Shown here: piece after piece, positions 18,823 through 41,700 of the stretch
Position numbering within the stretch: the first letter of the stretch is position 1
How the letters are laid out: every line of letters begins with the position of its first letter
Assembly: GCA_027485485.1 (NCBI GenBank)
Contig: JAIXQY010000157.1
Span: forward strand, 1 to 44,292
DNA length: 44,292 bases
Source: Sphingomonadales bacterium
GTDB taxonomy: Bacteria > Pseudomonadota > Alphaproteobacteria > Sphingomonadales > Sphingomonadaceae
Reading direction: 5' to 3'
Position numbers and translations under genes: made by a program
The notes under the pieces: generated by a model
Database searches by the model: none
What the model saw: the letters and a program-made list of their open reading frames with translations, nothing else
What the model was told of the DNA's origin: nothing

Positions 18823-20001
<1,179 letters not shown>

Positions 20002-20018
20002 TCAGATGAAGCAACCAT

Positions 20019-20169
20019 GATTCAAGCCCGAATCCCGGTCAAGAATCATTGTGAATCAATCAGATTCGCCGATTCGCTGCAGAACCGAATCAAACCGGGA
20101 ACGGCACCATATCTTGAGTCCCCGGCCCCCAAGCGGACTCAACCCCTTGTGGTGTGACCAAAAGGACTC
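20019..20169. promoter_or_regulatory. Cluster of ten GANTC (CcrM target) sites upstream of ccrM
   Basis: GANTC at 20019, 20030, 20043, 20053, 20063, 20071, 20087, 20116, 20136 and 20165, all between the rnhB stop and ccrM start. Confidence 0.9.
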
Positions 20170-20177
20170 ACCCGCCA

Positions 20178-20744
20178 TTATTGCGCAATCAGGCCCTTCA
20201 TCGGCTGAAAACTGCGGCGGTGGTGCGGTGTGATCCCCAAATGAAGCAGCGCGGCACGATGGCTGGCGGTGCCATAACCCTGGTTGATGGCCCAGCCATA
20301 GCCGGGGTGTTGCTGGTCCAGTTCGGCCATGATGCGATCGCGCGTCACCTTGGCCACGATGGAGGCCGCCGAGATCGCCGGTTCCAGCGCATCGCCGCCC
20401 ACGATCGCCCGCGCCGGCCAGCGCCACGGCGGTAGACGGTTGCCATCAACCAGGACCAGATCGAGCGCGAGGCCAAGCTGCTCCACGGCGCGGGTCATGG
20501 CCAGATGATTGGCCTGCAGGATATTGAGCGCATCAATCTCGGCAACGCTGGCCTGGCCAACCCCGATCAGCGCGTCACTGGCCATAAGTGCGGCGAACAG
20601 TTGCTCGCGGCGCCTGGGCGAGAGTTTCTTGCTGTCGTTGAGCCCGGGCGGAATCACATCACGCAGGACAACGGCCGCCGCCACCACAGGGCCCGCCCAA
20701 GGGCCACGCCCGGCCTCGTCAACCCCGGCAATCAGACCCGCCAT
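20178..20744 (-). CDS. rnhB: Ribonuclease HII
   Basis: IAGVDEAGRGPWAGPVVAAAV, NDSKKLSPRRRE, AASIVAKVTRD. Confidence 0.96.
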   Translation of the reverse strand: MAGLIAGVDEAGRGPWAGPVVAAAVVLRDVIPPGLNDSKKLSPRRREQLFAALMASDALIGVGQASVAEIDALNILQANHLAMTRAVEQLGLALDLVLVDGNRLPPWRWPARAIVGGDALEPAISAASIVAKVTRDRIMAELDQQHPGYGWAINQGYGTASHRAALLHLGITPHHRRSFQPMKGLIAQ

Positions 20745-38700: not shown

Positions 38701-41700
38701 GGCGAAACCATCGCTGCCGCCGGTGGCGATGATCTGTACCAGGCCGCCCTGCACGGCGCTGATCTCGGCGCTGCCGCCCGTGCCATTGCCGCCAGCTGCC
38801 ACAGCTCCGCCGGCGCCGCCACGCCCGTTCAACACCAGGCCATCGATACCGGCCACGCTCACGCTGCCGCCATCGGCAACAATCTCAAAACTGCCCCCGA
38901 TGCCGGAACCGGCATTGCCGGCAAAAGCATCGCCGCCGGCGGCATTGGCCAAGGCATCGATGATCGTGCCGACAACCAGACGCCCGGCCGCTTCGGCGCG
39001 GAGCACCAGCGATCCGCCCTCACCATTGCCGCTCAATACATTGCCCAGGCCACCGGCAGCATTCAGGCGCAAGCCAGAAAGATTGCCCAGCGTGATGTCA
39101 CCACCAAGGGCTTCAACACCAATGCCCGAGGCCGTGGCATCACCGCCAAAGGTCCCGGTACCGCCAGTCGCGGTGCCGATCATCGTGATGTCACCCACCG
39201 TGACACCGCCGGCGAAGTTGGCAGCATTGGGCTCTGTGGCGATGGCCAGGCCCATCTTGTTGCCCACTGCGTTGCCGCCGTTGCCGCGTTGCGAACCGGT
39301 GCCGGCATTGCCGCCCGCAGTGGTGATATCGAGCAACAGCCCGTTCGACTGGCCAGCGGCCACCGAAATGCCGCCGCCCGATGCCTGCAGCGTAAGCCCA
39401 CCGGCAGTTGCAGAGCCACCAGCGCCGGAAACATCGCCCGCGCCGCCATCGCCACCCGTGGCGGTCAACACCACAGCCAGCGGGCCCGTCAGCAATGCCG
39501 GGCCGGAGCCCGCCACCGGGCTGGAAACGCTGAAGCCGGCAAATTGTGTCCGCGCATTGCCGCCAGCCCCAGCCGAGAGGCCGCCGTTCGAATTGCCGCC
39601 GGCGCCGCCAATGGCACTGCCATCAATGTTGATCGCGCCCGTGCTGAAAAAGCCGTTGCTGCCCGTTGCCGCGATGCGGACAATGCCGCCGAGGGCATCG
39701 CCGCCGCTGCCGCTATCGGTGCCGCCGGCGCCTCCGATTGCGCCCGTGGCCAGATCCAGATCGTTGCTGATCAACACGGTGCCCTGGCCACCTGCCAACA
39801 GGAAGTCGATCTGCCCGCCCGCGGCGGTCCCACCAAAGCTCGACAGGCCGTCCCCGGCCGTGGCCGTGGTGGCAAGCCGGGCCGTGCCCTGCAGGTCGAT
39901 GCGGGCATCGCCGTCGCTTTGCACCAGAATCGCGCCGCCATCGGCATTGCCGCCGATGGAACCAATCCCGCCGGTGCCACTGGCGCGCAGCAGGATCGCG
40001 GTTTCGGTGGCGTTCAAGCCATCGGCAGCGATACGCGCACCATTGTCGCCGGCAAACACGTCGATCTGGCCGCCACGGCCGTTGCCGCCGGTGCCGTCGG
40101 CGCTGTTGCCACCGGTGCCATTGGCATAAAGGCCAATGCCGATGGGGCTGCCGTTCGCCGTCAGGGTGAGGTTGCCGCCGGTAAAGGCCAGCAACTGGGC
40201 AAAACCGCCGAAACCGTCGCCACCATTGCCGGTGCCCAGGGCAGCACCGCCCTGGCCATTGGCCTGCAGGCCGATCACGGATCGCACCGCCAGGCTGCCG
40301 CCAGCCGATGCCTCAAGGCTGAAACTGCCGCCCCGGCCGTCGCCGCCGCCACCTGGCCCGCTGGCCGAGCCGCCCACACCATTGGCCCGGCTGATCAGGA
40401 TATCGCCCAGCACCAGCGTGCCACCATTGTCGGCGCGGATATTGGCATTGCCGCCACTGCCCACGCCGCCATCGCCCGTGCCATCGCTGGCGTTGCCGCC
40501 AAAGCCTTCCACACTGGCAAGCATCAGATCAACGCCGCCAATCAATTCGCCATCGCTGTCAGCCACCAGGCTCAATTGGCCACCCTGGCCAAAGCCGCCA
40601 CTCACGCCGCTGCCGGCACGGCCGACGGACGAAAGCGAGATCGGCTGCTGCAGGCTGATGATGGCACTGTTGTTGGCGCGAATGGTCAGATTGCCGGCAA
40701 AGGCATCGCCGCCAAAGCCGCCCTGGCTGTTGCCGCCCGTCGCATCGGCCGAAAGGCTGGTGGCACCCAAGGTGATTGTGGAACCTGGGCCATCGGTGAT
40801 CACCCCGATCGAACCACCCGAACCGCGGCCGCCATCGCCGTCAACCGATGCCTTGCCTTCGCCATTTGCAATCAGGGTCAGGCCAGCGGTGGCCTGCAAG
40901 GAACCGCCGCTGTCGGCCCGCAGATTGAGAATGCCGGCACTGCCATCGCCGCCGATCTGATTGGCGCTGCCGCCTTCACCGCTCACCGACAGTTGGGTAG
41001 CACCCAGCAGCTGAATCTGCCCGGATTCCGAAGCCAGCAGATTCATGACGCCGCCACTGCCGCGTCCACCGGTTTCGCCAAGGCCACCAAAGCCTTGCGC
41101 CGATGCCGTGAGCTGGCCAAGCGTCAGCACACCGGCTTCGGCCAAAAGCTGGACCGTGCCGGCGGCGCCGCGCCCGCCGAGTTCGATGGTGGCACTCTGG
41201 AGCCCGCCACCATTGCCGCTGGCATCAAGTTGGATGCTGCCAGCGATGGTGATGCGACCGCTGTCCGTATCGGCGGGGCGCGATTGTTGCCGCTGCACCA
41301 CCAGTTGCACGCTGCCGCCGGTGCCAAGACCGCCATTGGCACCAATTCCGCCACTGCCAGTCGCGTTGCCAATCAGGCTGGCCAGCGTGATCTGGCCGGG
41401 GGTGCCATTGGCGCTGTTGGGCCGACTGCGCACCAGCACGCTGCCGGCCTGGCCGACACCACCGTCGGCCACGGCGTTGGAGGAGTTGGAGCCGCCATTG
41501 CCACCGCGCGCGCTGGCGTTGATCACCACCGCCGCTGCGGCAAACAGGCCACCATCGCTGGCCAGCGTGACCGAACCAGCCTCGGCACGGCCGCCCACAC
41601 CGGGGGTGCTGGCGGCAACACCGCCATTGCCACCCTCGGCATTGGCGCTGATACCGATGCTGCCAAAGCTCATGCTGCCCTGGCCACTGCCGGCCGCACT

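Follow-up and report, generated by a model that had tools for sequence, protein, structure and literature searches.

A clustered GANTC array upstream of ccrM in a sphingomonad: a putative methylation-read promoter with related arrangements across Alphaproteobacteria

The rnhB-ccrM gap and its GANTC sites

The window, a stretch of 44,292 nucleotides from a Sphingomonadales bacterium, carries the gene of the DNA methyltransferase CcrM, preceded in the same direction by rnhB (Table 1). The rnhB stop codon is located at 20178 and the ccrM ATG at 19986, and the gap between them is filled by ten GANTC sites, which start at 20019, 20030, 20043, 20053, 20063, 20071, 20087, 20116, 20136 and 20165. All ten had been listed in the original prediction and were recovered at the same positions. 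Their placement between the two genes is borne out by the gene coordinates, although the last site ends only 8 bp short of the rnhB stop codon.

Table 1. Features at the ccrM locus, in window positions
Feature	Position	Strand	Basis or remark
ccrM, GANTC-specific N6-adenine DNA methyltransferase, 387 aa, N6_N4_Mtase and RAMA domains	18823-19986	-	NF050803 E=2.4e-180; PF01555, PF18755
Shine-Dalgarno-like GGAG, 6 bp before ATG	19993-19996	-	direct reading; function inferred
Predicted -10 hexamer CATGGT (form CAnnnT); first base is last base of site 2	20014-20019	-	position inferred
GANTC site 2 (core), GAATC, starts 19 bp after -35	20019-20023		offset-19 recurrence; predicted -16 to -12
GANTC site 1 (core), GATTC, between -35 and -10 at 11 bp from site 2	20030-20034		offset-8-9 recurrence
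-35 element TTGAC	20038-20042	-	fixed GANTC offsets
Five upstream GATTC/GAATC sites (20043, 20053, 20063, 20071, 20087), 8-16 bp apart	20043-20091		positions kept in congeners, spacers diverged; helical spacing
Distal conserved Sphingomonadales element, palindromic around two GANTC arms	20082-20171	-	93-position model R1, E=3.2e-17
rnhB, ribonuclease HII, upstream neighbour, same direction as ccrM	20178-20744	-	PRK00015 E=3e-72

In the whole window, 52 GANTC were observed against 118 expected from dinucleotide shuffles; hence, the motif is depleted overall. The original prediction had set the ten sites against an expectation of about 0.6 per 151 bp. This background is too high, since it amounts to only 0.14 per 151 bp outside the cluster, and the ten sites are indeed far above expectation. 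With the lower background, the Poisson probability of at least ten sites is about 1e-15. Moreover, when the gap region (195 bp) was dinucleotide-shuffled 5000 times, the count never exceeded six GANTC, and the cluster is therefore far beyond chance.

A pattern search of the 3.32-Mb assembly for GANTC triplets, with 2-25 bp between neighbours, returned 22 places, compared to three for the control; eight of the 22 belong to the ccrM cluster. The next longest closely spaced run contains four sites; equally dense windows elsewhere in the genome, which would have counted against the original prediction, were not found.

This second densest run, with four GANTC in 60 bp, is located just 3' of an ispE-like gene (G000:C25:29254-29313; L003 1501-1560). 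In the window, the sole other triple is found at 41013-41044, with three GANTC in 32 bp.

Conservation within the genus and across the class

CcrM is encoded in all 24 genomes of the genus. The best upstream 151-bp window of the 24 rnhB-type ccrM loci, two of which are without rnhB on the retrieved stretch, contains 5-11 GANTC (median, nine). The twelve nearest congeners, with a CcrM identity of 83-100%, possess 9-11 sites each. The cluster is kept wherever the rnhB-ccrM locus is present in the genus, and its loss in relatives, which would also have counted against the original prediction, was not seen. In an alignment of four congeners, 38 of the 40 specified site bases show no variation, versus 56 of 113 bases in between. 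The array is thus non-random and conserved, the sites being more constrained than their spacers. Across the genus, the N base, the number of sites and the flanks vary while GA-TC is kept.

Three genomes of the genus (G620, G635 and G616) also possess accessory CcrM-type genes (L323-L325), which have only one or two GANTC. Their products are 67-70% identical, and no rnhB lies alongside. These copies without the array constitute a natural control, which indicates that the array belongs to the rnhB-type locus and not to every CcrM copy. At L325, the start of the accessory gene overlaps the terminal part of a small ORF, 3' of a DUF6437 gene.

For the wider comparison, ccrM upstream regions were taken from 80 named contigs, from the family and from approximately one genome per family across Alphaproteobacteria; the contig scan mainly covered sphingomonads, with some rhodobacters and others. 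Over 199 loci, GANTC occurs upstream of ccrM at 14.8/kb versus 1.8-4.3/kb for seven palindromes of the same composition, and is wholly absent in ten. In 72 of 79 loci of ~7 kb, no other stretch is as dense in GANTC as the ccrM upstream region, and six loci show a tie; none of the 2834 background windows contains at least five sites. Rhodobacter-type loci mostly have exactly three GANTC, and sphingomonads 2-11. Culturable sphingomonads with the array include Novosphingobium taihuense (L057) and Sphingopyxis granuli (L086). The density had been called unusual in the original prediction, which is correct for a genome but not for ccrM genes, because similar arrays, with 3-11 sites, occur widely in the class.

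These counts also bear on the idea that the array has no function and reflects an accident of composition or a general tolerance of GANTC in intergenic DNA. GANTC is over-represented in alphaproteobacterial intergenic DNA (PMC3973325), but this excess is about 1.5-fold, compared to a more than tenfold and conserved one at ccrM. The idea is already contradicted by the conservation of sites versus spacers in the four congeners and is extremely improbable.

Core promoter geometry and candidate inputs

The sites at 20030 and 20019 start 8 and 19 bp after the start of the -35 element TTGAC, and these distances recur at other ccrM loci. In an unconditioned test, in which TTGAC alone was required (some of the other core statistics are preconditioned on the two-GANTC pattern), 121 of the 224 TTGACs are followed by a GANTC at offset 19 and 117 by one at offset 8-9, where control palindromes average 0.3-0.6. 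With TTGC also allowed, the exact offset 19 was found in 137 of 219 loci (~60%) and the two-site arrangement in 136 of 219; the exact core geometry is missing in ~40% of these loci. Among 104 aligned cores, the total length is identical in 94, though values of 22-26 were seen. The base following site 2 is an A in 96% of the 104 loci, and the fifth base is a T in 62%.

A 17-bp spacer would give a -10 element of the form CAnnnT, in which the two most important -10 bases would be kept. Numbered from the transcription start predicted in this way, which falls near 20007 on the minus strand of the window, site 2 would span about -16 to -12, and site 1 about -27 to -23. The leader in the window runs for ~21 nt up to the ccrM ATG and contains the GGAG. 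Site 2 is directional, with C as its N base in 106 cases, A in 26, T in 12 and G in none (n = 144).

In the genome of the window, the two-site core was found only at ccrM, plus one sequence present on two contigs. The latter (G000:C48:4025-4050 and C221:11650-11675) reads identically as TTGAC-GACTC-GATTC and is the only other similar two-site spacing in the genome. A general promoter class of this type was rejected, as TTGAC with GANTC within 0-30 bp was barely more frequent than in the reversed control (85/88 vs. 69/75).

The likeliest candidate for the reader of the GANTC sites in the array is GcrA, named as an example in the original prediction. A gcrA gene is encoded in the genome of the window (PF07750, G000:C43:4062-4562, E=1.3e-43). 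The extended motif reported for GcrA-activated promoters is YGAKTCG. It is matched by the upstream sites 20071 and 20087, and by neither core site of the window; across loci, it is found at 30% of sites 1 and 10% of sites 2. Promoter geometry and GcrA detection were compared across genomes (22/39 vs. 16/40; Fisher p = 0.18), and their co-occurrence, not being significant, was discarded as proof of the reader. Of the 11 genomes in which GcrA was not detected, seven have the core geometry, but the missing hits could be explained by divergence of GcrA. The proposal gains from the presence of gcrA and is weakened by core sites without YGAKTCG and perhaps by the geometry in genomes without detectable GcrA.

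As the two sites lie inside a predicted core sigma70 promoter, m6A at these positions may act directly on polymerase engagement and melting. It is conceivable that no dedicated reader is involved: m6A at -15/-13 and at about -25 would change sigma70 contacts or melting, CcrM would repress or tune its own promoter without GcrA, and the upstream sites would serve other factors. Site 2 overlaps -12 and is orientation-biased as a polymerase contact would be, and the geometry persists where GcrA is not detected. This bias, however, fits GcrA-sigma contacts equally well, and a direct effect leaves the phased upstream sites and the distal element unexplained; it is considered unlikely. Alternatively, the CcrM protein itself might bind its array, either as an autorepressor or by being titrated there. 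Every site is a CcrM substrate, the array would raise the local affinity, and the accessory CcrM copies without an array tie the latter to a regulated locus. On the contrary, substrate binding needs neither a fixed -35 offset nor the orientation bias of site 2, and this possibility is judged very unlikely.

Other inputs differ between lineages. CtrA is the main activator of ccrM in Caulobacter. The rnhB-ccrM gap of the window, on the contrary, contains no CtrA half-site TTAA on direct reading and has ten GANTC sites, which distinguishes it from the Caulobacter promoter as described. In 27 of 126 other core-bearing loci, TTAACC is located around -39 and -28 relative to the -35, compared to 1-8 for permuted hexamers. 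In four loci of one family (L126, L250, L251 and L267; f10), a canonical CtrA box TTAA-N7-TTAA replaces the -35 TTGAC, with GACTC near the same place before the -10. In several Erythrobacteraceae loci (L070, L078, L084, L095, L111, L116, L120-L122 and L125), a DnaA-box-like TGTGGATAA follows closely after site 2, as in GACTCACCCTGTGGATAAC, and overlaps the predicted -10/+1. Through this box, ccrM may be linked to DnaA in Erythrobacteraceae.

Upstream sites, distal element and proposed mechanism

Several neighbouring sites had been noted in the original prediction to lie near one helical turn apart, and this spacing holds statistically. Pairwise GANTC distances in sphingomonads peak at 9-11, 19-20, 29 and 38-41. 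For the class sample, the helical phasing at 10.5 bp is R = 0.19 versus 0.05 in randomised arrays, a value inflated by shared ancestry.

Such an array brings to mind the clustered GATC arrays of the Dam system, bound by SeqA in gammaproteobacteria. By analogy, a protein preferring hemimethylated GANTC would coat the region after passage of the fork and delay ccrM transcription to late in the cycle. The window sites are, as in SeqA arrays, clustered, helically phased and made for an orphan adenine methyltransferase. They differ in motif and bacterial class, and in the location of the array at the methyltransferase's own promoter. To our knowledge, no SeqA-like binder of hemimethylated GANTC is known in Alphaproteobacteria, and a role as promoter parts accounts better for the two core sites. 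Sequestration is hence distinctly unlikely. SeqA itself is presented as a silencer acting on hemimethylated DNA in one account (PMC2865523).

The distal element contains the sites 20116, 20136 and 20165 and overlaps 20087. Neither this element nor the promoter placement of the two core sites had been part of the original prediction. In Sphingomonadales, it consists of GAGTCnTTnnnGCCACACCACnAGATGTTGAGTCC, followed after ~14 bp by GGACTCAACATnTTGTGG, often with an additional GGACTCnTTTCGTTC. Its flanks are constrained beyond GANTC itself (CACACCAC and TTGTGG). Model R1, applied to 21 relatives, identified a single place per genome in 15 of them. All strong matches correspond to the ccrM upstream region, and the weakest fall in two other families. 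Most matches also score on the opposite strand, as expected of a palindrome. No covariation was found in the distal element, and Rfam returned only a single sub-threshold match; an RNA element was therefore dropped. This match, SAM_alpha at 19760-19789 on the minus strand (25.4 bits; gathering threshold, 36), lies in the ccrM coding sequence and is probably due to chance. Given the lack of covariation and of an RNA family, the element is read as a DNA operator. A second promoter within it was also rejected: GACTCAACAT is similar to the proximal GANTC-A-n-n-n-T, yet it is not preceded by a TTGAC at 19 bp.

A conserved palindrome with constrained flanks, together with the bias of the N base, might also be expected of ordinary protein operators in which GANTC occurs by coincidence (for example, a TTGAGTC...GACTCAA palindrome together with a -10 variant TGACTCA), methylation being incidental. 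Within the genus, however, N base, number and flanks vary around a preserved GA-TC, and across species, GANTC is enriched rather than one fixed heptamer. This explanation is quite improbable.

The preferred reading, held with a confidence only slightly above even, is that the array is the control region of ccrM: a self-targeting sigma70 promoter, read by its methylation state. The layout is conserved in much of Alphaproteobacteria, which suggests that CcrM's own marks time its synthesis. The methylation-sensor or timer role suggested in the original prediction is likewise hypothetical. The sites are presumably methylated in this organism: CcrM would mark its own promoter, and the marks would be read by a protein. 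At the two core sites, m6A could directly affect promoter engagement and melting by RNA polymerase or by a sigma70 partner. The upstream sites, on approximately one face of the helix, would let molecules of a GANTC reader, with GcrA as the likeliest candidate, bind next to one another. Replication would render the region hemimethylated, and later CcrM synthesis would lead to full methylation. Transcription would be permitted in the hemimethylated state and lowered when many sites are fully methylated, resulting in a sharp replication-coupled pulse of ccrM with negative feedback. The sign of the methylation effect is the least certain step and could be the opposite, since full methylation activates ftsZ in Caulobacter (PMC3708114).

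A more elaborate version, possible though doubtful, is a multi-site methylation counter. The phased array would be read cooperatively by one protein, and ccrM expression would depend steeply on the number of hemi- or fully methylated sites. Such a counter would combine a class-wide core (TTGAC, GANTC, GANTC, -10) with a distal operator specific to Sphingomonadales, bound by a further factor.

Expression governed by a few promoter methylation sites is known from agn43/OxyR and pap/Lrp, which are heritable phase switches with competing repressors. Unlike these, nothing at the ccrM array shows bistability. Methylated promoters dependent on GcrA and sigma70 include those of mipZ, ctrA P1 and podJ. 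The promoter proposed here resembles these, and the CcrM-activated ftsZ promoter, in its GANTC within or beside the -35/-10, with gcrA present in the genome. It differs by having two spacer sites and eight more, and core sites without YGAKTCG. In Caulobacter ftsZ, the GANTC in the spacer between -35 and -10 confers the response to CcrM: full methylation gives the highest level and lack of methylation the lowest (PMC3708114). GcrA associates with RNA polymerase and with promoters that carry methylated GANTC, and one footprint is far larger on fully methylated DNA (PMC3667746). In the Caulobacter cycle, promoters with a GANTC in this spacer reach their peak at 40-60 min (PMC4287350).

For Caulobacter ccrM itself, a modelling study citing the original work treats transcription as confined to hemimethylated DNA (PMC2217572), and expression has been described as 'most probably' affected by methylation (PMC3973325). 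The window shares with it the presence of GANTC in the ccrM promoter, the methylation dependence in Caulobacter being taken as these two sources state it. In a Sphingomonas, the main motif carrying m6A is GANTC (PMC8067484). A survey of 37 genomes from 2010 counted GANTC upstream of cell-cycle genes and concluded that control could not be derived from it (PMC2877005), and a later count for ctrA gave at most five or six GANTC (PMC8116508).

The occurrence of GANTC in alphaproteobacterial promoters, control by CcrM and GcrA and the methylation sensitivity of Caulobacter ccrM are thus already known. In the open-access literature, to which the search was confined, no report was found of the ccrM array, the fixed -35 offset, the class-wide geometry or the distal element. 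The single occurrence of the Sphingomonadales distal element in each genome, at ccrM alone, points to another GANTC-reading factor, which may be new. CcrM is conserved in most of the class, and the timing of its synthesis is of interest beyond Caulobacter. The fixed spacing of a -35, a -10 and two methylation sites, shared by many families, provides a concrete object that can be mutated. With the ccrM promoter, it can be asked whether an orphan methyltransferase controls itself via its own marks, through which reader and with which sign.
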